A DNA stretch of 64,000 nucleotides, from NCBI RefSeq assembly GCF_014199915.1, contig NZ_JACHOO010000001.1, forward strand, positions 248,001 through 312,000, given 5' to 3'. The notes beneath the pieces are model-generated. The model saw only the letters and a list, made by a program, of their open reading frames with translations, did not search any database and was not told the origin of the DNA. The stretch is from Prosthecomicrobium pneumaticum (GTDB lineage: Bacteria; Pseudomonadota; Alphaproteobacteria; Rhizobiales; Kaistiaceae). Positions within the stretch are counted from its first letter, which is position 1. The number at the start of each line of letters is the position of its first letter. This document shows positions 3,395 through 64,000 of this stretch, piece by piece. A program made the position numbers and the translations under genes.

Positions 3395-4933
3395 TCAGCT
3401 CGGAACGCGGACCGGACGCAGCAGGAATTGCGGGACGTGGTCGCCGAGGCCGACCGGGGTCGGGCCGTCGTGATCGTCGCGCCGGCCACGGCCACGGCGC
3501 TGGTCGCCCTGCGGGGCGTCGTTGCGGGGGCGCTGCACGGAGGGGCTCGCCGTCCCCTGCGTGACGGGGCCGGAGCGCGGCGCGGAGGAGGGGATGGCGG
3601 TTTCGGCCGTTCCGGCGGGCTCCGCCTCGCGCGGCGCACGGCGGCGTTCGGCCTCCTGGCGCGGCTTCGTCTCGCGGGCCTTCGCCTCCGACGGCTTCGC
3701 CTCGGGCGACCTGCCTTCTGAAGACCTCGCCTCGCGGGATTTGTCACTCCGGCGGCCGCGACCGCGGGCGGGACGCTCGTCCTCGGCCGTATCGCCGGAA
3801 CCGGTCGAGACACCGGGCTCGAGCCAGCTCACATTGTCGCCGGTCAGCTTCTTGATGGCGTCGACATATTTCGTCTCGGCCGGGGTGACGAGCGTCACCG
3901 AGGTGCCGGAGCGACCCGCGCGGCCGGTGCGGCCGATCCGGTGGACATAGTCGTCGGCGTGGGTCGGCACGTCGTAATTGTAGACGTGGCTGACATCCGG
4001 AATATCGAGGCCGCGCGCCGCGACGTCGCTCGCCACGAGCAAGGTCAGCCGGTTGTTCTTGAAGGCGTCGAGCGTCGCCATGCGCGCCCGCTGGTCCATG
4101 TCGCCGTGCAGCGCGCCGACCGAGAAACCGTGCCGCTCGAGCGAGCGGGCGACCACCGCGACGTCGCGCTTGCGGTTGCAGAAGATGATCGCGTTCTTCA
4201 GATCGACGGCGCCGCGGATCAGGTCGCGCAGCGTCGCCCGCTTGTCGGCGCTCTCGCGGCCGCAGGTGATGAAATGCTGCGCCACCGTCTTCGCCGTCGT
4301 CGCCGGACGGGCCACCTCGACACGGACCGGATTGGTCAGGAAAGCGTCGGCGAGGCGAGTGATCTCCGGCGGCATGGTCGCGGAGAAGAAAAGGGTCTGC
4401 CGCGTGAAGGGCAGCATCTTGCAGATCCGCTCGATGTCCGGGATGAAGCCCATATCGAGCATACGGTCGGCCTCGTCGATCACGAGGATCTCGACGCCGG
4501 TCAGCATCAGCTTGCCGCGCTCGAAGAGATCGATCAGCCGGCCGGGCGTCGCGATCAAGACGTCGACACCGCGATCGAGCTTCTTCTCCTGATCGCCGAA
4601 AGAGACGCCGCCGATGATCAGCGCGACGCTCAGCTTGTGGTTCTGGCCATAGCGGACGAAGTTCTCCTCGACCTGCGCGGCGAGTTCGCGCGTCGGCTCG
4701 AGGATCAGGGTGCGGGGCATGCGGGCGCGGGCGCGGCCCTGTTCGAGCCGCGTCAGCATCGGCAGCACGAAGGAGGCCGTCTTGCCGGTGCCGGTCTGGG
4801 CGATACCCAGTACGTCACGGCCCTCGAGCACATGGGGGATCGCGCCGGCCTGGATCGGCGTCGGGGTGGTGTAGCCGCTCGTCGTAACGGCAGCCAACAC
4901 TTTGGGGCTCAGTCCGAGCTGGTCGAAATTCAT
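3395..4933 (-). CDS. rhlE: ATP-dependent RNA helicase, RhlE-like DEAD-box protein
   Basis: A 512-residue DEAD-box helicase that unwinds RNA duplexes, with roles in RNA turnover, ribosome assembly and cold adaptation in this family. Motifs are complete: Q-motif (PTPIQ), Walker A AQTGTGKT at 45-52, DEAD at 153-156, SAT at 184-186, HRIGRTGR at 331-338. The core ends near residue 380. The remaining 130 residues are a charged, low-complexity tail rich in Arg, Glu, Ser and Pro, typical of RhlE proteins and probably RNA-binding. A good promoter and a leader hairpin precede it. No clear Shine-Dalgarno sequence stands directly before the ATG, which may matter for regulation. Confidence 0.93.
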   Translation of the reverse strand: MNFDQLGLSPKVLAAVTTSGYTTPTPIQAGAIPHVLEGRDVLGIAQTGTGKTASFVLPMLTRLEQGRARARMPRTLILEPTRELAAQVEENFVRYGQNHKLSVALIIGGVSFGDQEKKLDRGVDVLIATPGRLIDLFERGKLMLTGVEILVIDEADRMLDMGFIPDIERICKMLPFTRQTLFFSATMPPEITRLADAFLTNPVRVEVARPATTAKTVAQHFITCGRESADKRATLRDLIRGAVDLKNAIIFCNRKRDVAVVARSLERHGFSVGALHGDMDQRARMATLDAFKNNRLTLLVASDVAARGLDIPDVSHVYNYDVPTHADDYVHRIGRTGRAGRSGTSVTLVTPAETKYVDAIKKLTGDNVSWLEPGVSTGSGDTAEDERPARGRGRRSDKSREARSSEGRSPEAKPSEAKARETKPRQEAERRRAPREAEPAGTAETAIPSSAPRSGPVTQGTASPSVQRPRNDAPQGDQRRGRGRRDDHDGPTPVGLGDHVPQFLLRPVRVPS

Positions 4934-4946
4934 GTCTTAGAAGAAA

Positions 4947-4959
4947 GGACCTTTGGTCC
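4947..4959 (-). promoter_or_regulatory. Hairpin with U-rich tail in the rhlE leader (attenuator-like)
   Basis: On the transcribed strand the leader reads GGACC-AAA-GGTCC followed by TTTCTT, ending about 13 bases before the rhlE ATG. A 5-bp stem with a pyrimidine tail looks like a weak intrinsic terminator or a ribosome-access switch. RhlE-type helicases unwind such structures, so autoregulation is conceivable; that is inference. Confidence 0.4.
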
Positions 4960-5009
4960 GGGTCTGGACGAGGCGCGAGCGCTATCGCCTTCGGTCATCG
5001 ATGAGCTGC

Positions 5010-5037
5010 AATATGGGAATTACTGGCCTCTTGTCAA
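5010..5037 (-). promoter_or_regulatory. Predicted sigma-70-type promoter of rhlE
   Basis: On the minus strand a perfect TTGACA (5037-5032) is followed after 16 bases by CATATT (5015-5010). Transcription would start near 5003 and give a leader of about 70 bases containing the hairpin at 4947-4959. Confidence 0.6.
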
Positions 5038-5146
5038 TTCGCCGCACAGGAAATCGGCTCGGCGCAGCCATTTTTTCGCGGCTGCGGCAAAGGTGAGACG
5101 GCGTATCGGGCCGGATTGAACGGCCGGCCCGCGTGCTGCTCGCGTC

Positions 5147-5593
5147 TCAGTTGCTGGCGGGGCCGAAGGTGTATGTGCCGTCGGTGTTGAGGAAAAGTTC
5201 GTAGGTATCGGAGCCGTTGCCGCTCGAATCGGCCAGTTCGACGAAGATCGACAGGCCGTTGTCGTCCGGCTCGGCGACATAATCGTCGATGTCGCGCTTC
5301 ATGGTCTCGAGCTCCTTGATCTCGACGGAGCGCTGGACCACCTCGGCGCCGTCCGGACCTTTGCCGATCCACTGCACGAAGAGACGGGCGACCGGGGGCT
5401 CGGCGGTGCTCCGGGCGATGACGACGCGATAGCTGCCGGTGCCGCCGCCCGGAACGTCGAAGCTGCCGACGACGCGGACGTCCTCGACGGCGGTCGGCAT
5501 CGCCCCGACGCCGTCGGCGAGCGGATCGGCCGCGACCGGGGCCGCATGGAGCGCGAGGAGGAGCGGAAGGGCGAAGAGGAGGCGGGTCTGCAT
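5147..5593 (-). CDS. Small secreted protein of unknown function
   Basis: A 148-residue protein I do not recognise. It starts with a clear Sec signal peptide (MQTRLLFALPLLLALHAAPVAA, likely cut after VAA-D), so the mature part of about 126 residues is periplasmic. The mature part is acidic and looks beta-rich, ending in a short Thr/Tyr/Gly-rich strand region. The start was chosen because GGGAG lies at the right distance upstream and the signal peptide begins there; longer in-frame extensions have no such support. It lies between rhlE and a divergent small secreted protein gene. Function cannot be inferred. Confidence 0.75.
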   Translation of the reverse strand: MQTRLLFALPLLLALHAAPVAADPLADGVGAMPTAVEDVRVVGSFDVPGGGTGSYRVVIARSTAEPPVARLFVQWIGKGPDGAEVVQRSVEIKELETMKRDIDDYVAEPDDNGLSIFVELADSSGNGSDTYELFLNTDGTYTFGPASN

Positions 5594-5713
5594 ATCGTCT
5601 GATCTCCCGGACGAGGGCGGCGGAGAGGCTAACCGAACTCGGGCGGTGGCGGAACCGCCCCCGCCGCCGCAGCGTTCATGGCGCCGAGGGGAGTTGCTCC
5701 GAAGGAGTGAGCC

Positions 5714-6004
5714 ATGAGCAGAATGCTCGGTCTGATACTCGCCGCCGCCGTCGTAATTCCGCTCGGGACCGCAGAGGCCGCGCCCGTCGCGTCCCCCGCG
5801 GTGCCCGAAGCGGGCGTGATCAAGGTGGCCGACGGTTGCGGCCGGTTCTGGCACCGCAATCCGTGGGGTCGCTGTGTCCCCAATCGCGGCTACCGCGAAC
5901 ATCGGCGCCCGCCGGCGGTCTATTTCGGCTTCGGCCCGCGCTGGGAACGCGAGGACCGCTGGGATCGGCGCGATCATCACCGCCGCCATCGCGACTGGGA
6001 CTGA
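5714..6004 (+). CDS. Small secreted His/Arg-rich protein with GCG...CVPN motif
   Basis: A 96-residue protein with a signal peptide (residues 1-22, cut near AEA-AP). The mature segment contains GCGRFWHRNPWGRCVPNRGY, matching the Gly-Cys-Gly / Cys-x-Pro-Asn pattern I associate with small secreted alphaproteobacterial proteins annotated 'GCG_CRPN' (from memory, unchecked). The C-terminal 30 residues are packed with His, Arg, Asp and Trp, which could bind metal or be disordered. GAAGGAG sits 8 bases before the ATG. A strong palindrome follows the stop. No function is known to me. Confidence 0.75.
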   Translation: MSRMLGLILAAAVVIPLGTAEAAPVASPAVPEAGVIKVADGCGRFWHRNPWGRCVPNRGYREHRRPPAVYFGFGPRWEREDRWDRRDHHRRHRDWD

Positions 6005-6076: not shown

Positions 6077-8131
6077 TCAGATGTCGAGCTCGGTCGCGAA
6101 GGCGGCGTTTTCCTGGATGAAGCGGAAGCGCTCCTCCGGCTTGTTGCCCATCAGCTGCTCGACCGTCTCGCGCGTCAGCGTAACTTCATCCTCGACGATG
6201 CCGACCCGCAGCAGGGTGCGATGGGCCGGATCCATCGTTGTCTCCTTCAACTGCGCCGGCATCATCTCGCCGAGGCCCTTGAAGCGGCCGACCTCCACCT
6301 TGCCGCGCCCCTTGAAGACGGTCGCGAGCAGTTCCTCGCGATGCGCATCGTCCCGCGCGTAGAGCGTCTTGCCGCCCTGCGTCAGCCGGTAGAGCGGGGG
6401 CACGGCGAGATAGAGATGGCCGCCACGGATCAGCTCCGGCATCTCCCGGTAGAAGAAGGTGATCAGCAGCGAGGCGATATGCGCGCCGTCGACATCGGCG
6501 TCGGTCATCACGATCACCTTGTCGTAGCGCAGATCCTCCTCGCGATAACTCTTTCCGGTGCCGACCCCGAGCGCCTGGATGAGATCGGCGAGCTGCTGGT
6601 TGGCGGCGAGCTTGTCGCGGCCGGCGCTCGCCACGTTGAGGATCTTGCCGCGCAGCGGCAGCACCGCCTGATTGGCGCGGCTGCGCGCCTGCTTGGCGGA
6701 GCCGCCCGCGGAATCGCCCTCGACGATGAAGATCTCGCTCCCCTGAGCAGCCGTCTGGCTGCAATCGGCGAGCTTGCCCGGCAGCCGGAGCTTGCGCACC
6801 GCGGTCTTGCGGGCGACGTCCTTCTCCTGGCGGCGGCGCAGCCGCTCGTCGGCCCGCTCGAGTACCCAGTCGAGCAGGCGTGTCGCCTCGGCGGGCGATG
6901 CGGCGAGCCAATGGTCGAACGGGTCGCCGACCGCCTTCTCGACCAGACGCGCCGCCTCGGCGGTCGAGAGCTTGTCCTTGGTCTGGCCGACGAATTCCGG
7001 CTCGCGCACGAAGACGGAGAGGAGGGCGGCGCAGGAGGTCATCACGTCGTCGGAGGTGATGATCGAGGCGCGCTTGTTGCCGGACAGTTCGGCATAGGTC
7101 TTGAGGCCGCGCAGGAGCGCCATGCGCAGGCCCTGTTCGTGCGTGCCGCCCTCCGGCGTCGGAATGGTGTTGCAATAGGAGCGGACGAAGCCGTCGCCGG
7201 GATACCAGGCGACCGCCCACTCGACCGCGCCATGGCCGCTCGCCTTCTCGGTGCGGCCGGCGAACATGGCGTTCGTCACCTGGCGCTCGCCGGTCAGCTC
7301 GACGGCGAGCGAGTCCTTGAGGCCGCCGGGAAAATGGAAGACCGCGGTGGTCGGCGTATCCGTGCCGGCGACGAGCTCGGCGGCACAGGTCCAGCGGATC
7401 TCGACGCCGCCGAACAGATAGGCCTTGGAGCGCGCCATCTTGAAGAGGCGCTCCGGCTTGAAGCGGGCGCCCTTGCCAAAGATCTGCTCGTCGGGCCGGA
7501 AACGGGTCCGCGTGCCGCGGCGGTTGTGCACCTCGCCGAGCGCCTCCAGGCCGGTCACCGGAGCGCCGCGCGAAAAGCGCTGCCGCCACAGCTTCTTGCC
7601 ACGCGCCACCTCGACTTCGAGCGTTTCGGAGAGCGCGTTGACGACGGAGACGCCGACGCCGTGCAGGCCGCCCGAGGTCTCGTAGACCTTCGAGTCGAAC
7701 TTGCCGCCGGAATGCAGCGTCGTCATGATCACTTCGAGCGCCGACTTGTCCTGGAACTTCGGGTGCGGATCGACCGGGATGCCACGGCCGTTGTCGGTGA
7801 CGGTGAGGAAACCGTCGGCCTCGAGTTCGACACCGATAAACGTGGCATGGCCGGCGACCGCTTCATCCATCGAATTGTCGATCACCTCGGCGAAGAGATG
7901 ATGCAGCGCCTTCTCGTCCGTGCCGCCGATATACATGCCAGGCCGGCGGCGGACGGGCTCGAGCCCTTCGAGCACCTCGATGTCGGCGGCGGAATAGCTC
8001 TCGGCGACCGGAGCCGGCGTCTTGGCGCGCTGGCGCGCCTCCTCGCGCCGCGCGGCGGCCTTGTCGGCGATCGATCGGATATCGGCGGCGGCGCCGGTCG
8101 CGGCGCCGAAGAGGTCGTCGGTTTCGGCCAT
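6077..8131 (-). CDS. parE: DNA topoisomerase IV subunit B
   Basis: The ATPase subunit of topoisomerase IV, which with ParC decatenates daughter chromosomes. The 684-residue length fits ParE of alphaproteobacteria rather than the longer GyrB. Visible features: the GHKL ATP site (EVIDNSMDEA, then DNGRGIPVD), the ATP-lid glycines (SGGLHGVGVSVVNAL), and the TOPRIM motifs EGDSAGGSAKQ and DADVDGAHI. The N-terminal 50 residues are a variable Ala/Arg-rich extension. It is convergent with the small gene at 5714 and divergent from the VOC protein gene. Confidence 0.95.
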   Translation of the reverse strand: MAETDDLFGAATGAAADIRSIADKAAARREEARQRAKTPAPVAESYSAADIEVLEGLEPVRRRPGMYIGGTDEKALHHLFAEVIDNSMDEAVAGHATFIGVELEADGFLTVTDNGRGIPVDPHPKFQDKSALEVIMTTLHSGGKFDSKVYETSGGLHGVGVSVVNALSETLEVEVARGKKLWRQRFSRGAPVTGLEALGEVHNRRGTRTRFRPDEQIFGKGARFKPERLFKMARSKAYLFGGVEIRWTCAAELVAGTDTPTTAVFHFPGGLKDSLAVELTGERQVTNAMFAGRTEKASGHGAVEWAVAWYPGDGFVRSYCNTIPTPEGGTHEQGLRMALLRGLKTYAELSGNKRASIITSDDVMTSCAALLSVFVREPEFVGQTKDKLSTAEAARLVEKAVGDPFDHWLAASPAEATRLLDWVLERADERLRRRQEKDVARKTAVRKLRLPGKLADCSQTAAQGSEIFIVEGDSAGGSAKQARSRANQAVLPLRGKILNVASAGRDKLAANQQLADLIQALGVGTGKSYREEDLRYDKVIVMTDADVDGAHIASLLITFFYREMPELIRGGHLYLAVPPLYRLTQGGKTLYARDDAHREELLATVFKGRGKVEVGRFKGLGEMMPAQLKETTMDPAHRTLLRVGIVEDEVTLTRETVEQLMGNKPEERFRFIQENAAFATELDI

Positions 8132-8319
8132 GTCGTCCTGACGCTGTGGCGGCGCCGGCGGCGGAGATCCGACCCGGACCGGCGCGCGGCCCTGGCTTTC
8201 CTGAGAGCGGCTGCCCGTGCTTCGTATCGCCTTTGTTCACGGCCGCCGCAAGCGGAAATCCGCGGCCGTCCACCGCTTTCGGCGGCCTGCCGGAGCTGGC
8301 AGGAAAGGAGAGTCCCCCG

Positions 8320-8700
8320 ATGATCGGCCATATCGACCATTTCGTGCTCACCGTGCGCTCCGTCGAAGCGAGCTGCGCCTTCGACGGCCGGGTGCTCGGC
8401 TTCCGGCGGGTCGATGCGCCCGGCCGGCCCAGCGCGCTCGCCTTCGGGCATCAGAAGATCAACCTGCACGAGGTGGGTCGCACCTTCGAGCCGAAAGCCG
8501 CGGCGCCGACGCCCGGCAGCGGCGATTTCTGCCTGATCGCGGCGGTGCCCATCGAGACCGTGCGCGACCGCCTGCTGGCCGAGGGCGTCCCGATCGAGCT
8601 CGGTCCCGTCGAGCGGGAAGGGGCGCAAGGTCCGATGACCTCGCTCTATTTCCGCGATCCGGACGGCAATCTCGTCGAGGTCGGCTCCTACCGAAGATGA
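8320..8700 (+). CDS. VOC-fold (glyoxalase/bleomycin resistance-like) protein
   Basis: A 126-residue single-domain vicinal-oxygen-chelate protein. It starts with the typical strand IDHFVLTVRSVE, has the mid-motif FGHQKINLHE, and ends YFRDPDGNLVEVGSY, the usual second metal-binding half (the Glu of LVEV and the His of IDH are the normal metal ligands). Related proteins annotated as biphenyl-2,3-diol-dioxygenase-like or virulence proteins have this size; the reaction is not predictable. AGGAAAGGAG lies 9 bases upstream of the chosen ATG. Confidence 0.85.
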   Translation: MIGHIDHFVLTVRSVEASCAFDGRVLGFRRVDAPGRPSALAFGHQKINLHEVGRTFEPKAAAPTPGSGDFCLIAAVPIETVRDRLLAEGVPIELGPVEREGAQGPMTSLYFRDPDGNLVEVGSYRR

Positions 8701-9077
8701 TCCGAGAGGGAACCGCGGCGGTGACTCGCGGAGTCTGTGTCGACCCCGCAACAGGTCCGATGAGTCCTGTTCCATGACTCGCGCATCGGCCCCATTCGCC
8801 GCCTTTCAGCCATAAATAGAAACGAGCGTCGCCGGCGTTGGGGGCGGATGGAAGCGCAGCGACAAGCCGGCGAATGTGCACCGGACGGACGGCCTCTGGC
8901 CGCGCCGCCGAAGCCTTTGCCGTAGCCGGACGGGCGCCTCGGATTCGCCGGAAACCAATCCTATCTCCCGCCGGACCGTGGATGCACGGCGGCGGTGGGC
9001 CTAGGCGGAAGTCACGCGTGGGAGAGACGACGGCGGGGGCCGTCGGCGGCGACCGCGCTACTCAGAAACGGCGTACC
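8701..9077. other. 377-base non-coding stretch upstream of exoR
   Basis: No convincing gene on either strand. An open frame runs through part of it in phase with exoR, but it lacks a signal peptide or conserved-looking sequence and the exoR start is well supported. An AT-richer patch (CATAAATAGAAAC, near 8811-8823) is the only candidate promoter region I see. The exoR leader is probably here. Confidence 0.5.
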
Positions 9078-9887
9078 ATGCGGATCGGTGTTGCGTTCGG
9101 TGTCAAGGCGATGATGGGGCTGCTGGCGGCCGGGCTGTGCTCGGTGGCGGCCTTCGCCTTCGACGCCAAGCACATGGACGAGAATTTCTCGCCCGGCGAG
9201 GCGTTCCGCTTCGGCTTCAACGCCTACAAGCAGGGCGACAAGTCGACCGCGGTCGAAGCGCTCACCTATGCCGCCGACAAGGGCCATGCCATTGCGCAGT
9301 GGAAACTCGGCCGGATGTATGCCGAGGGTGACGGTCTGAAGAAGGACGACGCCAAGGCCTTCAAGCTGTTCAGCGAGATCGTCAATGTGCATGCCGAGGA
9401 CAATCCCAACGCGCCCTCGGCCCGTTTCGTCTCGAATGCCTTCGTCGAGCTCGGCGGCTATTACCGCAACGGCATTCCCGGCTCCGACATGGCGCCCGAT
9501 CTCGGCCGTGCCCGCAGCATGTATGCCTATGCCGCCTCCTATTTCGGCGACCCCGACGCGCAGCTCGCGCTCGCCCGCATGTATTATGACGGCGAGGGTG
9601 TCGACCGCGACCCGCTGCAGGCGGCGCGCTGGGCGAAGCTCGCCGCCGACAAGGGCAATGTCGGGGCGCAGGCGCTGCTCGGCCACATGCTCTTCGAGGG
9701 GGAGGGGATCGAGCGCCAGCCGGTGCTCGGGCTGATGTTCCTGTCGCTCGCCCGCGATCGCGCGCCCGGCCAGGACTGGATCCTGCGCATGCACGAGCAG
9801 GCCTTCTCGGTCGCCGACGAGACCGAGCGCCGTACCGCCCTGGCGCTCGCCGAAAAATGGGAAACCAAGAACGCGCCGACGCAATAA
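9078..9887 (+). CDS. exoR: Periplasmic Sel1-repeat regulator ExoR
   Basis: In Sinorhizobium and Agrobacterium ExoR is a periplasmic protein that binds the sensor kinase ExoS/ChvG and restrains the ChvI response, controlling exopolysaccharide, motility and host entry. This 269-residue protein has the right length (S. meliloti ExoR is 268), a signal peptide ending AFA before FDAKHMDE, and Sel1-type repeats: ALTYAADKGHAIAQWKLGRMY, LARMYYDGEGVDRDPLQAARW and AADKGNVGAQALLGHMLFEGEG. It closes with the ExoR-like stretch EQAFSVADETERRTALAL. The ATG at 9078 was chosen because the signal peptide starts there. The partner exoS/chvI genes are not in the window. Confidence 0.85.
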   Translation: MRIGVAFGVKAMMGLLAAGLCSVAAFAFDAKHMDENFSPGEAFRFGFNAYKQGDKSTAVEALTYAADKGHAIAQWKLGRMYAEGDGLKKDDAKAFKLFSEIVNVHAEDNPNAPSARFVSNAFVELGGYYRNGIPGSDMAPDLGRARSMYAYAASYFGDPDAQLALARMYYDGEGVDRDPLQAARWAKLAADKGNVGAQALLGHMLFEGEGIERQPVLGLMFLSLARDRAPGQDWILRMHEQAFSVADETERRTALALAEKWETKNAPTQ

Positions 9888-59265: not shown

Positions 59266-59538
59266 ATGAACAAGAACGATCTCATCGCGGCCGTCGCGGA
59301 GCAGACCGGTCTTTCCAAAGCCTCGGCGGGTGAAGCTGTCGATGCCACGTTCAAGGCCATCGAGGGCGCCCTGAAGGCGGGCGACGAAGTGAAGATCATC
59401 GGCTTCGGCAACTTCTCGGTCGCCAAGCGCGCCGCCACCGAAGGCCGCAATCCGCGCACGGGCGAGACGATCGAGATCGCCGCGTCGAACACGCCGAAGT
59501 TCAAGGCCGGCAAGGGCCTCAAGGACGCGGTCAACTGA
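59266..59538 (+). CDS. hupB: DNA-binding protein HU
   Basis: Nucleoid-associated protein of 90 residues that bends DNA as a dimer. It shows the HU fold sequence: [20 protein letters not shown] at the start, the conserved IIGFGNFSV, and the DNA-binding arm [30 protein letters not shown] lies upstream. lon-hupB adjacency is standard in alphaproteobacteria and other proteobacteria. A long hairpin follows. Confidence 0.97.
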
Positions 59539-59565
59539 GGTAGCCTGTGGGGTCAGGGGTTATGT

Positions 59566-59605
59566 GGAAACGGCTCCGCCCGGGCGACCGGGCGGGGCCG
59601 TTTCC
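59566..59605 (+). terminator. 18-bp hairpin after hupB
   Basis: GGAAACGGCTCCGCCCGG, loop GCGA, CCGGGCGGGGCCGTTTCC; 18 pairs with a single G-T. The 3' arm includes GTTTCC rather than a clean T-run. Very stable; terminator of hupB. Confidence 0.75.
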
Positions 59606-59615
59606 ATTCGATCGC

Positions 59616-59644
59616 TTGAAGCGCCGGCTCCGAACGCTTAAACC
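59616..59644 (+). promoter_or_regulatory. Predicted promoter of tRNA-Val
   Basis: TTGAAG at 59616-59621, a 17-base spacer, TAAACC at 59639-59644, 17 bases before the tRNA. Confidence 0.5.
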
Positions 59645-59661
59645 GGACGCGCCGGAGGGAA

Positions 59662-59737
59662 GGGCGGTTAGCTCAGTCGGTAGAGCGCCTCGTTTACACC
59701 GAGGATGTCGGGAGTTCGAGTCTCTCACCGCCCACCA
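59662..59737 (+). tRNA. tRNA-Val (anticodon TAC)
   Basis: Full cloverleaf: acceptor GGGCGGT / ACCGCCC, D-stem GCTC/GAGC, anticodon stem CCTCG/CGAGG around TTTACAC, T-arm GGGAG-TTCGAGT-CTCTC, discriminator A, and an encoded CCA (59735-59737). Confidence 0.97.
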
Positions 59738-59807
59738 CTCCTGGATGGCCTTTTTCGAGTTGTCCCCAGGATGTTCGAACGAAGTTTTGAGAGCGGGCGC
59801 GGCCCGC

Positions 59808-59836
59808 TTGACAGGCCCGGAGCGGTGCCGTAATCA
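59808..59836 (+). promoter_or_regulatory. Predicted promoter of tRNA-Asp
   Basis: TTGACA at 59808-59813, exactly 17 bases, TAATCA at 59831-59836, 51 bases before the tRNA. A strong match, showing tRNA-Asp is transcribed independently of tRNA-Val. Confidence 0.65.
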
Positions 59837-59887
59837 GCGCCCACACGACGCGGCGACGCCGCGCCGGCCCCGAAAGGGGACCCTAGC

Positions 59888-59964
59888 GGGGGTGTAGCTC
59901 AGTTGGTTAGAGTATCGGCCTGTCACGCCGAGGGTCGCGGGTTCGAGCCCCGTCACTCCCGCCA
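59888..59964 (+). tRNA. tRNA-Asp (anticodon GTC)
   Basis: Acceptor GGGGGTG / CACTCCC (one G-T), D-stem GCTC/GAGT, anticodon stem TCGGC/GCCGA around CTGTCAC, T-arm GCGGG-TTCGAGC-CCCGT, discriminator G and encoded CCA (59962-59964), followed by a TTTTCTTCTC stretch. The accessory genes to 62648 begin after it. Confidence 0.95.
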
Positions 59965-60104
59965 TTTTCTTCTCATCTCGTTCCGATGATCTCGACCGGT
60001 GCTGGCTCGGGCGCGTTCCGGTCGCAGTGCTTGGACCGGTTCGACGGAGACCCGTTGCGTCGCCCCGTCGGCGACCGACCGGTCCGGCTGGCCCGGAACC
60101 CCTC

Positions 60105-61073
60105 ATGATCGTGCTGATCACGACCCGCGGGCACGGCTATACGCTGGGCTCGATCAACAAGGGCACGTTCGGCGTGCCCACGCCGCCTTTCCGCCGCACC
60201 ACCTATGACCGCATGTTCCGCCGCTTCCGGGCGCCGCGCGCGACCTATGTCTTCGCCGACCTCGAGAGGCTTTCACCCTTCGAACTGAGCCTCGCCGCCG
60301 ATCTCTACCGCGCCCTGACGGCGGCCGGCTTCCGCTGTCTGAACGACCCTGCGCGGGCGATGAGCCGGGTCGAGCTGCTCGTCGCGCTCGAGGCGGCGGG
60401 GATCAATCCCTTCGGAGCGTACCGGGCCGACACTGCGCCGAGGCCGAAGCGATTTCCGGTCTTCCTCCGCTCGGAGCAGGACCATGTGCAAGCGGCCGAT
60501 ACGCTCTATCCCGACCAGGACACGCTCGATGCCGCGCTCGTCCGTCTGCGGGCCGCGGGAACGCCTTTGCGGGGCCTTCTCGTCGTCGAGCAGGCGGCCG
60601 AACCCTATGCCGAGGGCCGCTGGGCGAAATGGGGAACCTGGCGGGTCGGCGACCATATGAGCGTCGATCACATCGCGGTCGACGACACATGGCTGGTCAA
60701 ATATGGCGACCATGCCAAGGTGACCGGCGCGATCGCCGAGGACGAGCACGACGCCGTTCTCTCGAACCGATTCGCCGAGCCGGTGCGCCGCGCCTTCGAC
60801 ATCGGGGGCATCGCGTTCGGGCGCGCCGATCACGGCAGCTTCGGCGGCCGCCCGGTGGTCTACGAGATCAACACCAACGCCTATCTGGGACGCTACTCGA
60901 ACCACAAGAACCCGCTCCGCGCCGAGGCGCATCGGGTCGCGCGGACGCGATTCGCCGAGGCGCTCGAGGCGATCGACAGCGAGGGCGGCGGCTCGGTGGC
61001 ATTGCCGGCGACGCCGCTCCGCCGGCCGCTCGCCTGGTGGCAGATCGGCTTCGTGGGGCCGAAGCGGCCCTGA
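60105..61073 (+). CDS. ATP-grasp-like enzyme of unknown substrate
   Basis: A 322-residue protein with features of the ATP-grasp fold: an N-terminal nucleotide-fold-like start (MIVLITTRGHGYTLGSINKG), a middle with FPVFLRSEQDH, then TWLVKYGDHAKV, and an end AFDIGGIAFGRADHGSFGG followed by VVYEINTNAYLG, whose E-x-N-T-N is the usual Mg-binding site. Family members ligate amines or alcohols to carboxylates. It lies after the tRNA genes and is convergent with a repeat-peptide gene 63 bases away; a functional link is inference. No strong Shine-Dalgarno; the ATG was chosen at the start of the fold. Confidence 0.65.
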   Translation: MIVLITTRGHGYTLGSINKGTFGVPTPPFRRTTYDRMFRRFRAPRATYVFADLERLSPFELSLAADLYRALTAAGFRCLNDPARAMSRVELLVALEAAGINPFGAYRADTAPRPKRFPVFLRSEQDHVQAADTLYPDQDTLDAALVRLRAAGTPLRGLLVVEQAAEPYAEGRWAKWGTWRVGDHMSVDHIAVDDTWLVKYGDHAKVTGAIAEDEHDAVLSNRFAEPVRRAFDIGGIAFGRADHGSFGGRPVVYEINTNAYLGRYSNHKNPLRAEAHRVARTRFAEALEAIDSEGGGSVALPATPLRRPLAWWQIGFVGPKRP

Positions 61074-61091
61074 ACGCCGATCAAACGAAAA

Positions 61092-61114
61092 GAGCCCCGG
61101 CGGGGCCGGGGCTC
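61092..61114 (-). terminator. Terminator of the repeat-peptide gene (may also serve the ATP-grasp gene)
   Basis: GAGCCCCGGC, loop of 3, GCCGGGGCTC: a perfect 10-bp stem. On the minus strand it is followed by TTTTCGTTTG, an ideal rho-independent terminator 22 bases past the peptide stop. Confidence 0.9.
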
Positions 61115-61136
61115 GCACGCGAAAATCACTCGGGGA

Positions 61137-61394
61137 TCAGCCGGGCGGCGGACCCATAGGGGCACGCCCGAGCGGAGCGGTCGGCGGCGGGCCCATCGGC
61201 GCACGGCCGAGCGGTGCGGTCGGCGGCGGACCCAGCGGGGTGCGTGCTACGACCGCGACGCCCGGCGGCGGACCCATCGGCGCACGGCGGGCAACAGGCG
61301 CAGGCGGAATGGGCGGCGGACCCATCGGCGCACGCCCCAGCGGTGCGGTCGGCGGCGGCCCCATGGGCGAAGAGAGCTTTGCAGCAACAGCCAT
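61137..61394 (-). CDS. Repeat peptide with six [S/A/T]P[M/L]GPPP units (candidate modified-peptide precursor)
   Basis: An 85-residue peptide with a short leader (MAVAAKLS) and six tandem units: SPMGPPPTAPLGR (9-21), APMGPPPIPPAPVARR (22-37), APMGPPPGVAVVAR (38-51), TPLGPPPTAPLGR (52-64), APMGPPPTAPLGR (65-77) and APMGPPPG (78-85). It has 30 Pro, no Cys, no acidic and no aromatic residue; Arg ends each full unit. GGGAG stands 7 bases before the ATG and a strong terminator follows, so it is expressed as a gene. Repeat copies differ by synonymous codons. The DUF6065-like gene is 67 bases upstream on the same strand. No signal peptide. I know no family; a RiPP-like precursor or Pro-rich binding protein are both possible. 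Confidence 0.8.
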   Translation of the reverse strand: MAVAAKLSSPMGPPPTAPLGRAPMGPPPIPPAPVARRAPMGPPPGVAVVARTPLGPPPTAPLGRAPMGPPPTAPLGRAPMGPPPG

Positions 61395-61436
61395 ATCTTG
61401 TCTCCCGGAATGCTCGGCCTCACGGACCCCGCCGAG

Positions 61437-61465
61437 ATGATCCTCCGCCGACAACCGGGGGTCAA
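61437..61465 (-). promoter_or_regulatory. Possible own promoter of the repeat-peptide gene
   Basis: On the minus strand TTGACC (61465-61460), a 17-base spacer and GATCAT (61442-61437), overlapping the end of the DUF6065-like gene. Transcription would begin near 61430, about 36 bases before the ATG, allowing the peptide to be made in excess of the upstream protein. Confidence 0.45.
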
Positions 61466-62241
61466 GTCCCGCTCGTCACGTCCGGATCCCGGGGCGCCGC
61501 TGCCGGGCGGTTCCGCGGCGCGGCGACGCGAAGTTTCGAAAGGTGGCGCGGATTTCCGGTCTCGCCGGAGGGCGTCTTGCCGCGGAAGTACCACTTTTGC
61601 CAGCCGGCGCGCACCGTCTCCGGATCTCCCTCCCTCAACCTTTCGTTGAATTCCTGGCGCAAGCGCGAATAGTCGCGGAACGTGTCGCGCAGTTCGGGTG
61701 CGTCGTCGAGCGCCACCACCTCCGGCACGACATCGTCGAGCGCGCGGTATTCGACCGGCGTGACGAAGCAGAACGGCTCGCCTTGCGCGAAGCGCACGAG
61801 GCCGGGCCGGGTGAACTGCCAGTTCATGGTGAAGGTGAAGGCGAGCCAGTCGGTCTCGACGATGCCTTCGAGCGGCGCGATGCCGTCCTTCGGCAGGTTG
61901 GGAACGCCGCGCACCCAAAGGCCGAAGCCGGGATCGGTGCGGAACAGGTAGCGGACGTGGAAGGTCAGGACGCCATGGCCGAAATGCGACGAGGCGATTC
62001 CCTCGGCGGACCCGCCGTCCCCGGTCGTCACGGTGATCGCGTCGAGACCCATTTCGCCGTTCCATTCGGCGACGATCCCGGTCGGACAGAGAATCTCCCA
62101 GCCCATGCTGTTGGCGATGGTGAGCGGCAGGCAGCGATAGGCGAAGCGCTCGTCGGTCAGGTCCATCCAGTCCCGCTCGGCCCGTCCCGGCACGATGTCG
62201 GAGGCCTCTTCTTCCAGACGATAGCAGACGAGCTTGGTCAC
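61462..62241 (-). CDS. DUF6065-like protein of unknown function
   Basis: A 259-residue soluble protein. It begins TKLVCYRLEEEASDIVPG, then ERDWMDLTDERFAYRCLPLT and ANSMGWEILCP, and continues through a beta-rich middle (SHFGHGVLTFHVRYLFRTD, GLWVRGVPN) to a helical end with DYSRLRQEFNERL and GWQKWYFRGK. This resembles, from memory, the uncharacterised family DUF6065; that match is unverified. The last 30 residues are Arg/Pro-rich and variable. GTG start with GAGGG upstream. Its adjacency to the repeat-peptide gene on the same strand suggests it acts on or with that peptide; there is no direct evidence. Confidence 0.65.
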   Translation of the reverse strand: MTKLVCYRLEEEASDIVPGRAERDWMDLTDERFAYRCLPLTIANSMGWEILCPTGIVAEWNGEMGLDAITVTTGDGGSAEGIASSHFGHGVLTFHVRYLFRTDPGFGLWVRGVPNLPKDGIAPLEGIVETDWLAFTFTMNWQFTRPGLVRFAQGEPFCFVTPVEYRALDDVVPEVVALDDAPELRDTFRDYSRLRQEFNERLREGDPETVRAGWQKWYFRGKTPSGETGNPRHLSKLRVAAPRNRPAAAPRDPDVTSGT

Positions 62242-62329
62242 GACGGGCCCTCGCGTTAGGCGGCGCGAATGTCGAGCGGCCTTTAGCACACGCGGCGGAG
62301 CGCGTCGTGGCCTCGCACCACCGATGTGA

Positions 62330-62354
62330 AAGGGCCGGCGCTCGGCCGGCCCTT
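62330..62354 (-). terminator. Terminator after the Pro/Ala-rich membrane protein gene
   Basis: AAGGGCCGGC, loop of 5, GCCGGCCCTT, a perfect 10-bp stem ending CCCTTTCAC on the minus strand, 24 bases after the stop at 62379. Confidence 0.75.
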
Positions 62355-62378
62355 CTGGTCTCGCGACGCCCCTGACGG

Positions 62379-62648
62379 TCAGGGCGAGGTGGGAGCCGCA
62401 GGAGCCGGCTCGGTCGCCGGCGGTGCCGGCGTGGCGGGCGCCGGGGGAGGGGTGTCCGCGGCTGGCGGCGGCGTCGCGGGGGCCGGAGCCTCGGGCGCCG
62501 GGGTCGCCGGCGCAGGAGCCGGTGCGGTGGTGTCGGCAGCCGGGGCGGGCGGCGGGGGCGGCGTGGTGCCGCGGCCGAAGAACAGGAAGGCGACCACGAT
62601 GACGAGAATGATCACCGCGATCGCGGCCCACAGGTTTCGCTGCTGCAT
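62379..62648 (-). CDS. Single-span membrane protein with Pro/Ala-rich tail
   Basis: An 89-residue protein: a membrane helix at residues 6-25 (LWAAIAVIILVIVVAFLFFG) then about 60 residues almost entirely Pro, Ala and Thr (for example PPPPPAPAADTTAPAPAPAT). GGAGGAAA precedes the ATG by 3-4 bases and a strong terminator follows, supporting a real gene. Such anchors with disordered tails are common in Hyphomicrobiales and may span the periplasm. It lies upstream of the DUF6065-like gene on the same strand but is separated by the terminator. Confidence 0.7.
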   Translation of the reverse strand: MQQRNLWAAIAVIILVIVVAFLFFGRGTTPPPPPAPAADTTAPAPAPATPAPEAPAPATPPPAADTPPPAPATPAPPATEPAPAAPTSP

Positions 62649-63133
62649 GCATTTCCTCCGAGCGGCTCGTTGAGCGCGCCGGACCGGACGGCCCGGCGGT
62701 ATCCGCCCCGTCCGCTGCTTTCGCGGCGCGGACGGGGCCTTGGCGGCAACGGTCTCGGGCCGGACCGGTTCCGCCCGGCCGGCGCCGCGGCGGCTGTCGG
62801 CGCTCCAGGGCGACGCGCCGCGGCGCGCGGGACATTTAGCCGCGTCCTCCCGAACGGGCCGCGTGCTTAAATTCCTACAGTTCTAAGATTTGCGGCGAAC
62901 CGCCTGAAAACGTGGCGCGCTCCATCGGTCGACCGGCCGAACCAGGGCTTGCGCGCCCCCCGCCCCTCCGCTAAGCCTCGCCCCAGTCTTCGAACTGCCG
63001 CACCGCCGTTTCCGCGCTTGACGGACGAGGGCGATCGGTAGGTCAATGAACCGCTTGGCAGACTGCTGCGCCGCAACATCCCGCGGTCGCCGCCGCCCGT
63101 CCGGGCAGAGCCGAGGAACGAACGAGGGCTTTG
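62649..63133. other. 485-base intergenic region before the nuo operon
   Basis: No gene I can support. It holds an 11-bp hairpin (GCCCCGTCCGC, 12-base loop, GCGGACGGGGC, 62705-62738) in the leader of the minus-strand membrane protein gene and an AT-richer patch near 62866-62890. A weak TTGACG (63018-63023) lacks a good -10. The nuo promoter is presumably between 62870 and 63100; a small RNA in the G/C hairpin region cannot be excluded. Confidence 0.5.
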
Positions 63134-63499
63134 ATGGAAGACCTCCTCAGAGACTATCTTCCGATCGTGGTGTTCATCGGCATCGGCGCCGTGATCGCCA
63201 TCGCACTGATGGCTTCCTCGTTCCTGATCGCCTACCGCAATCCGGATCCGGAGAAATTGTCCGCATACGAATGCGGCTTCAATGCGTTCGACGACGCGCG
63301 CATGAAGTTCGACGTGCGGTTCTACCTGGTCGCGATTCTCTTCATCATCTTCGACCTGGAAGTGGCCTTCCTGTTCCCGTGGGCGATCACGTTCGGCGAC
63401 CTCGGCTGGTATGGCTTCTGGTCGATGATGCTGTTTCTCGGCGTTTTGACGGTGGGCTTCATCTACGAATGGAAGAAGGGAGCGCTCGAATGGGACTGA
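63134..63499 (+). CDS. nuoA: NADH-quinone oxidoreductase subunit A
   Basis: Membrane subunit of respiratory complex I, 121 residues with three membrane helices. The conserved loop [20 protein letters not shown] and the helix [15 protein letters not shown] are diagnostic. GAGGG lies 7 bases upstream of the ATG at 63134 (a TTG just before is not needed). Its stop overlaps nuoB by 10 bases. Confidence 0.97.
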
Positions 63500-64000
63500 G
63501 CGAAACCTCCGGCACGCTCGTCGCGCCGGCCCCGAAGGGCCTGGTCGATGCGACCGGCAAGCCCATCGGCCACGACGATCCGTTCTTCCGTGAGGTCAAT
63601 GACGAGCTCGCGGACAAGGGCTTTTTCATCGCCGCCGCGGACGATCTGATCACCTGGGCCCGGACCGGCTCGCTGATGTGGATGACCTTCGGCCTCGCCT
63701 GCTGCGCGGTCGAGATGATGCAGATGTCGATGCCGCGCTACGATGTGGAGCGCTTCGGCCTCGCGCCGCGCGGCTCGCCGCGCCAGTCCGACGTGATGAT
63801 CGTCGCCGGCACGCTGACCAACAAGATGGCGCCGGCGCTGCGCAAGGTCTACGACCAGATGCCCGAGCCGCGCTACGTCGTCTCGATGGGCTCGTGCGCC
63901 AATGGCGGCGGCTATTACCACTATTCCTATTCGGTGGTGCGCGGCTGCGACCGGGTCGTTCCGGTCGACATCTATGTGCCGGGCTGCCCGCCGACCGCCG
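63490..64000 (+). CDS. nuoB: NADH-quinone oxidoreductase subunit B (3' end outside window)
   Basis: Iron-sulfur subunit of complex I that carries cluster N2 next to the quinone site. The first 170 codons are present. Cysteines for the cluster are visible: Cys71-Cys72 in [10 protein letters not shown], Cys136 in GSCANGG and Cys166 in PGCPPT. The start is inside the nuoA end, a common arrangement. The gene runs off the right edge. Confidence 0.97.

Follow-up and report, generated by a model that had tools for sequence, protein, structure and literature searches.

A repeat-built, proline-rich peptide gene linked to one clade of ATP-grasp ligases: a candidate precursor of an undescribed kind of enzyme-modified peptide

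Results

The locus

Toward the end of the window, by which we mean the whole 64,000-nucleotide stretch of Prosthecomicrobium pneumaticum DNA analysed, a short gene for a proline-rich repeat peptide lies between an ATP-grasp ligase gene and a gene of the DUF6065 family (Table 1). When the interval of the short gene was translated on both strands, the repeat-peptide frame proved to be that of the minus strand; the corresponding plus-strand frame gives an Arg/Thr-rich stretch. An earlier note, made from the sequence, had described an 85-residue peptide built of six [SAT]P[ML]GPPP units, and the translation agrees. In order the units are SPMGPPP, APMGPPP, APMGPPP, TPLGPPP, APMGPPP and APMGPPP, at spacings of 13, 16, 14, 13 and 13 residues. 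Proline makes up 30 of the 85 residues, and Asp, Glu and Cys are absent. The good ribosome-binding site noted earlier is there, the GGGAG ending 7 bases upstream of the start ATG at 61394. The terminator, which had been called ideal, is present as a 10-pair hairpin that begins 22 bases past the stop and is followed by the tail TTTTCGTTTG, but it is statistically weak, the scan giving 2 overlapping sites where shuffled sequence gives 0.9 on average. A consensus scan for promoters found one site, TTGACC-17-GATCAT, against a mean of 0.0 in shuffles.

The DUF6065 gene lies upstream of the repeat-peptide gene on the same strand, and the ligase gene converges on the peptide gene tail-to-tail, so that peptide and ligase do not form one operon. 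A search of Rfam over 59500-64000 returned two tRNAs and nothing else, and PADLOC matched none of the three cassette proteins. Upstream of the DUF6065 gene, at 62379-62648 on the minus strand, is a gene for an 89-residue protein that has a single hydrophobic, helix-like stretch at its N-terminus and a tail rich in Pro and Ala; tblastn, with the low-complexity filter on, found no match to it in the loci compared.

Table 1. Features of the cassette, in window positions.
Feature	Position	Strand	Basis
RimK/LysX-type ATP-grasp ligase (predicted), 322 aa, C-terminal tail LRRPLAWWQIGFVGPKRP, convergent with the repeat-peptide gene	60105..61073	plus	AlphaFold2, Foldseek, VIA-align, alignment columns, tree
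Terminator-like hairpin after the repeat-peptide gene, tail TTTTCGTTTG	61092..61114	minus	scan
Repeat-peptide gene, 85 aa, six [SAT]P[ML]GPPP units	61137..61394	minus	translation, shuffle test, codon-position bias, homologous peptides in seven further genomes
Ribosome-binding site GGGAG of the repeat-peptide gene	61402..61406	minus	upstream sequence, read by eye
Promoter-like site TTGACC-17-GATCAT, just upstream of the repeat-peptide gene	61437..61465	minus	consensus scan; weak evidence
DUF6065 protein, 259 aa, predicted dUTPase-like fold	61462..62241	minus	Pfam, AlphaFold2, structural alignment

A coding frame

Is the repeat peptide the product of a gene, or is the locus a GC-rich tandem DNA repeat that merely reads as a peptide? 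The window does contain a GC-rich direct repeat here, with 4 copies of 59 nt that are 61-90% identical to a reference copy. Chance reading of such DNA, however, fails to produce the frame. When the 388 bases that separate the neighbouring genes were put through 3000 dinucleotide shuffles, an ORF with one [LMFY]GP(x)PP unit appeared 17 times and an ORF with at least two units never; when all eight cassette intervals described below were treated in the same way, single-motif ORFs arose in 0 to 20 of 3000 shuffles and two units were never reached. The repeats themselves also diverge as coding sequence does. Among the 15 pairs of six 7-codon blocks, base differences number 14, 0 and 34 at codon positions 1, 2 and 3, which is the pattern of a translated frame, and the codon differences comprise 29 synonymous and 14 non-synonymous changes. 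Against this, between the closest pair of peptides, those of Azospirillum melinis and Azospirillum sp. TSH64, all 4 changed codons are non-synonymous. Finally, the motif is found at the corresponding place in 8 genomes of at least five genera (three genera of one family, plus Azospirillum and Dongia), and its single-unit forms sit in intervals of only 54-60% GC. We can give the non-gene explanation hardly any credence. That 61137-61394 encodes a real repeat-built gene, as the earlier note had held, is confirmed.

The cassette in other genomes

The peptide is a poor probe for its own relatives. With phmmer the window peptide found none beyond the window genome among 61 genomes, a second match within that genome being set aside as it looks like part of unrelated reading frames, and a profile of four peptides matched only the window genome among 289. 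The homologous cassettes were found instead by linkage, via the ATP-grasp gene. A ligase search of 81 relatives gave matches in 10 genomes, the window genome included. In two of them (G002 and G007; Bauldia litoralis MAG MH-09jul19-191 and Bauldia sp. MAG SJ509) the ligase is 65% and 60% identical to that of the window, DUF6065 is near, and the two genes enclose a short ORF of Pro-rich repeats. A contig scan with these three ligases returned 12 loci, two of which are the Bauldia records themselves. Seven of the eight loci whose ligase is at least 50% identical carry a motif peptide between the ligase and the next gene; they belong to the two Bauldia MAGs, Rhizobiales bacterium 65-79, A. melinis, A. 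endophyticum, A. sp. TSH64 and Dongia deserti. The earlier note had let its proposal depend on homologous repeat peptides in relatives, and with these there are seven other genomes that have one.

The eight peptides range from 18 to 122 residues and hold one to six strict [LMFY]GP(x)PP units. The peptide of Rhizobiales bacterium 65-79 has four AYGPxPPP-type units; its start is uncertain, the longest frame being 104 aa, and internal starts were used in later comparisons. Those of A. melinis, A. endophyticum and A. sp. TSH64 (28, 26 and 28 aa) have one unit each, as does the 18-residue Dongia peptide, MSDHLLGPLPPPPPAPVL. All that the eight have in common is hydrophobic-Gly-Pro-(x)-Pro-Pro: the N-terminal portions vary from lineage to lineage, the C-terminal residues show no conservation, and no peptide contains Cys. 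It had been claimed that each unit ends in Arg, so that a trypsin-like protease could release the units. Arg does precede most units of the window peptide (5 of 6) and all four in 65-79, but the pattern is not general, as four of the eight peptides contain a single unit and lack Arg altogether. Among the annotated neighbours of the cassettes we recognised no protease and no exporter.

Might these ORFs serve to control translation, with a proline run that stalls ribosomes in an EF-P-dependent manner and so regulates neighbouring genes? Some of these very short ORFs have as many as eight consecutive prolines, which would suit such a device. However, the 3' end of the ORF faces the convergent ATP-grasp gene in 8 of 8 loci, so that no gene lies directly downstream on its strand to be controlled, and the window units, with PPP alone, provide no long runs. 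We consider a stalling role very unlikely.

The maximum-likelihood tree, which covers 25 ligases, groups those of the eight cassettes with one further ligase, that of locus L068, in a single clade (support 95/93). A motif peptide ORF is present on the 3' side of the ligase in 8 of the 9 clade genomes, the window included, and in 0 of 24 control stretches, of which 23 flank ligase paralogues outside the clade and one flanks L068. These same counts describe a short ribosomal peptide conserved beside a candidate modifying enzyme, which is the general mark of a RiPP. L068 shows no motif peptide in the 13 kb analysed, and none was seen beside the ligases of four more distant loci (L074-L077). The repeat peptide is in fixed linkage with one ATP-grasp clade.

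The cassette is rare. Across 385 genomes of the class, where the best few candidates per genome were scored, a cassette-level ligase occurs in the window genome only and four other genomes have distant paralogues; among 82 Azospirillum-family genomes, only the three known ones match the ligase at E <= 1e-70; plasmids gave 2 distant ATP-grasp matches and nothing more. A cassette so rare, and so scattered over the Rhizobiales, Azospirillum and Dongia lineages, suggests transfer between these lineages.

The ligase

The ligase gene is unannotated. Its product scores above the cut-off of no Pfam family, nor does any NCBIfam family match it at E up to 1, and sequence searches found no solved structure for either the ligase or the DUF6065 protein. 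An AlphaFold2 model built from an alignment of homologues (pLDDT 90.7) resembles RimK most closely: Z is 16.6 against 5zct (rmsd 3.9 over 257 residues) and 15.8 against 3vpd, compared with 12.8 against the graspetide ligase PsnB (7drm). Identity in the structural alignments to RimK/LysX-type enzymes is 10-16%. The predicted fold is that of the RimK/LysX branch of ATP-grasp enzymes. The putative metal ligands D242, E254 and N256 are invariant in all 25 aligned ATP-grasp homologues; we take these to be the metal positions of RimK, and their spacing, D-x11-E-x1-N, is presumably RimK's as well. ATP-grasp enzymes of the RimK type join a carboxylate to an amine. Six of the nine clade ligases end in a Trp/Arg-bearing tail, which the Azospirillum ligases lack.

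DUF6065

The DUF6065 protein matches PF19541 with E 5.8e-98 (327.5 bits against a curated cut-off of 26.6). Its AlphaFold2 model, made from 16 sequences (pLDDT 82.9), aligns with dUTPase 3lqw at Z 11.3 (rmsd 5.6, 127 residues), and the fold is predicted to be dUTPase-like. The earlier note had looked to DUF6065-like genes as the partner of the peptide. DUF6065 does adjoin the peptide in five of the eight cassettes, but in the three Azospirillum genomes it lies elsewhere, without a motif peptide alongside, and it is far commoner than the peptide, being present in 30 of 289 genomes of the class (E <= 1e-40). What stays constant beside the peptide is the ATP-grasp gene, on which the note is silent.

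We judged 45 DUF6065 loci by eye and saw no constant neighbour. The idea that DUF6065 generally accompanies Pro-rich or collagen-like sequences was rejected, since the 45 loci gave two clear cases and one weak one (L055). In two related genomes a protein with a collagen-like Gly-x-y tail is encoded directly upstream of DUF6065 (L061:7607-8884, L062:5422-6864). In other genomes DUF6065 is fused to a Cupin_8/JmjC-type domain, as in all four of the long-frame proteins tested (L141:4994-6691, L146:4075-5724, L150:2075-3910 and L139:4124-5797); these fusions are a hint that in other bacteria DUF6065 may serve a 2-oxoglutarate-hydroxylase-like enzyme.

Sugar-pathway neighbours

Genes of sugar metabolism neighbour three cassettes, in three lineages. 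A eukaryotic-type UDP-galactopyranose mutase gene directly precedes the ligase in G002 (L041:11811-13160; E 8e-124 against 4dsg) and in Rhizobiales bacterium 65-79 (L067, about 4645-5994), the two copies being 71% identical. Directly upstream of DUF6065 in the same two genomes is a GT2-like gene, 69% identical between them; their Pfam E values of 0.002 and 0.02 are both below the curated cut-off. GT8 genes occur in 65-79 and Dongia, and GalE lies upstream in G002. Two Azospirillum genes (L070, 4791-5852 and 7216-8229) look like glycosyltransferases by eye, match no family, and are not counted.

Do these neighbours, taken with the hydroxylase-like fusions of DUF6065, mean that the product is a Pro-rich glycopeptide, in which prolines are hydroxylated and then glycosylated with galactofuranose or a similar sugar, while the ATP-grasp enzyme adds an amino acid to the sugar or the peptide? 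The position of the mutase directly before the ligase is in keeping with such a pathway, as are the glycosyltransferase genes. A search of nine genomes, the eight cassette genomes among them, found a strong mutase match in G002 and 65-79 only, however; the best match in the window genome has E 1e-5 over 41 residues, and we count that genome as having none. With the mutase confined to two of eight cassette genomes and the window genome without one, a sugar is at most an extra. Nor was a hydroxylase recognised among the annotated cassette neighbours. We regard glycosylation of hydroxylated prolines as the core of the system as quite improbable.

Sister ligases and other paralogues

The relatives of the ligase outside the cassette clade offer a view of what the family does. 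A sister clade of five ligases has moderate support (86/84), below the starred level of the tree program. All five, and two further homologues, lie near one hydroxylase homologue of about 315-350 aa, found by tblastn in seven loci (L043-L048 and L079). These hydroxylases match no Pfam family; the four tested with HMMs all match TIGR04267, the aKG-HExxH-type peptide beta-hydroxylase, with E from 4.3e-26 to 2.5e-32. Characterised RiPP enzymes are found among the HExxH enzymes of this family (PMC12636437). With such genes for neighbours, the sister ligases tie the ligase family to clusters for peptide modification.

Near the sister hydroxylase genes there are short ORFs that have ribosome-binding-like sites and are candidate precursors; examples are L044:3522-3734 (minus), L046:3679-3870 (plus), L047:9032-9214 (plus) and L079:3502-3738 (minus). 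Four of the loci, picked by eye from ORF lists, have repeated units of AKVGxxK, SKRGxxK or LKEGKPx type (AKVGAIK/AKVGLNK, AKVGNTK/AKVGILK, AKVGIDK/NKVGLPK, SKRGIVK/SKRGFKL/SKRGIKP and LKEGKPI/LKEGKPN), and in two loci that are close relatives there are several paralogous peptides containing LFGF. How repetitive are these peptides? The longest exact internal repeat was matched by 0 of 5000 shuffles for L079, 4 for L048 (a glycine run) and 33 for L047, which are clear cases; one L044 peptide is middling (219 of 5000), and the other L044 peptide (557 of 5000), that of L046 and three of L043 are not significant, so that for five of the nine sister peptides at least 11% of shuffles do as well. Judged from their gene content, the sister clusters, with ATP-grasp, aKG-HExxH and candidate precursor genes, are possibly an undescribed RiPP group.

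More distant paralogues keep other company. A sulfotransferase-family gene (Pfam; L049:8335-9225) adjoins one, and a gene that is sulfotransferase-like by eye (L054:8444-9325) adjoins another. The window genome has a second paralogue (L050, G000:C14, about 8699-9724), perhaps a third sub-family of this ligase, with a methyltransferase-like gene at 7785-8702 next to it. Such neighbours mean that the ligase family need not always act on peptides.

Discussion

What might the ligase and the peptide do together? We consider it probable that the repeat peptide is the precursor, or a scaffold, of a RiPP-type pathway served by the RimK-like ligase. The earlier note had offered two options, the precursor of some modified peptide whose class is unknown and a Pro-rich binding module, and these are still the two leading readings. 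For the first we infer a scheme that takes in the action of the ligase on the peptide, its site, the cleavage, and the roles of DUF6065 and sugar. The Pro-rich unit [LMFY]GP(x)PP(P), single or in tandem, would be the part that the dedicated ligase recognises. The ligase would form an amide bond at one of the peptide's free termini, either the C-terminal carboxylate, as in RimK, or the N-terminal amine, as in the pheganomycin ligase; where a peptide has several units, ligation might take place at new ends created by cleavage between units. DUF6065 would most likely play an accessory part, and some lineages may add a sugar by means of glycosyltransferases and UDP-galactopyranose mutase. The common unit consists of Gly, Pro and one hydrophobic residue and has no reactive side chain, so that the remaining shared sites are the peptide ends. 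Ligation at an end, be it one or the other, is therefore the most likely reaction for the ligase.

A precursor is also suggested by the way in which the unit stays constant while peptide length and copy number vary, as in multi-core precursors, and by the sole peptide-less member of the clade, L068, which adjoins a class III lanthipeptide synthetase. On the other side, no leader/core border was identified in the peptides, the ATP-grasp and peptide genes are convergent and not co-operonic, and conservation of the C-terminal residues, which ligation at the C-terminus would lead one to expect, is lacking.

The second reading is that the peptide is an unmodified polyproline-II rod, whose [LMFY]GPPP motifs dock the ATP-grasp enzyme, DUF6065 and any glycosyltransferases into a single complex, and that the substrate of the ligase is a glycan or small molecule. 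A conserved unit of Gly, Pro and a hydrophobic residue, with no reactive side chain, is what one would expect of a docking motif, and its copy number varies as it does for avidity motifs. The Trp/Arg-bearing tail of six of the nine ligases could likewise be read in this way, as could the GT8, GT2-like, GalE and mutase genes that neighbour three cassettes. But the Azospirillum ligases go with a peptide and have no tail, the one-unit Dongia peptide is hardly able to bridge several proteins, and the sister ligases, in going with peptide-hydroxylase genes, point to peptides as substrates. We think docking unlikely, and prefer the precursor.

How does such a precursor compare with known systems? 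Graspetides such as microviridin and plesiocin likewise pair a short ribosomal peptide with an ATP-grasp ligase of similar fold (MdnC, PsnB). Graspetide rings join acidic and Ser/Thr/Lys side chains, whereas Asp and Glu are missing from the window peptide, and the unit that all eight peptides share lacks acidic residues as well as Ser, Thr and Lys. Membership is rejected because the acidic donor and the Ser/Thr/Lys acceptor are not in the core unit, and the earlier judgement that the peptide does not fit the graspetides stands even though its neighbour is an ATP-grasp enzyme, as in graspetides. RimK, the glutamate ligase of ribosomal protein S6, together with LysX/ArgX, supplies the best structural match; no S6 or LysW partner is seen here, and in its place there is a dedicated short polyproline peptide. 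In the pheganomycin pathway the ATP-grasp ligase PGM1 reportedly joins a small acid to a ribosomal precursor peptide, and PGM1 is a workable model for cores with inert side chains. As to graspetide precursors and bonds, excerpts of PMC5934393 describe multi-core precursors, and those of PMC13097080 derive the linkages from side chains.

Two further kinds of cluster come near. The sister ligases resemble the members of aKG-HExxH-type RiPP clusters (TIGR04267; PflC/PosC, BpmH) in lying near TIGR04267-type genes and short candidate precursors; in the window cassette that place is taken by DUF6065. That the cassette belongs to them is rejected, as tblastn with the HExxH proteins of L048 and L044 found no match at E 1e-4 in the eight cassette loci, including the window. 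Class III lanthipeptide clusters (RamC/LanKC) enter through L068, where a protein with RamC_N, Pkinase and LANC_like domains is encoded directly upstream of the ATP-grasp gene (L068:3328-5916). No synthetase is found, however, among the annotated neighbours of the other eight loci, and the eight peptides lack Cys.

Has such a system been described? In a library of open-licence full texts we found no paper on DUF6065, and the titles and abstracts that searches of it returned contain no description of a Pro-rich peptide with an ATP-grasp enzyme. The main text of a 2022 graspetide survey (PMC8939145) names neither Azospirillum nor polyproline, and excerpts of a 2026 graspetide paper (PMC13097080) and of the CDC123 ATP-grasp paper (PMC4431377) contain no description of a Pro-repeat/ATP-grasp system. 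The repeat peptide beside its ATP-grasp enzyme is a good candidate for the precursor of an undescribed kind of enzyme-modified peptide. More tentatively, one may imagine a new RiPP class, in which side-chain-inert polyproline cores from single or tandem precursors would be end-capped by a RimK-like ligase, with a dUTPase-fold DUF6065 partner and, in some lineages, furanose glycosylation; its products would be bacterial counterparts of Pro-rich glycopeptides.

What was an odd orphan ORF becomes part of a system that is conserved and open to test, in which an uncharacterised ATP-grasp family is paired with its peptides. Some of the peptides, at 18, 26 and 28 aa, are short enough for a synthetic peptide to serve as substrate. 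DUF6065 gains a predicted fold and a genomic context. If the ligase does act on peptides, ATP-grasp peptide chemistry would extend to substrates without a usable side chain, and the sister clusters, with their ATP-grasp enzymes, aKG-HExxH hydroxylases and short, partly repeated peptides, would be a larger group to explore.
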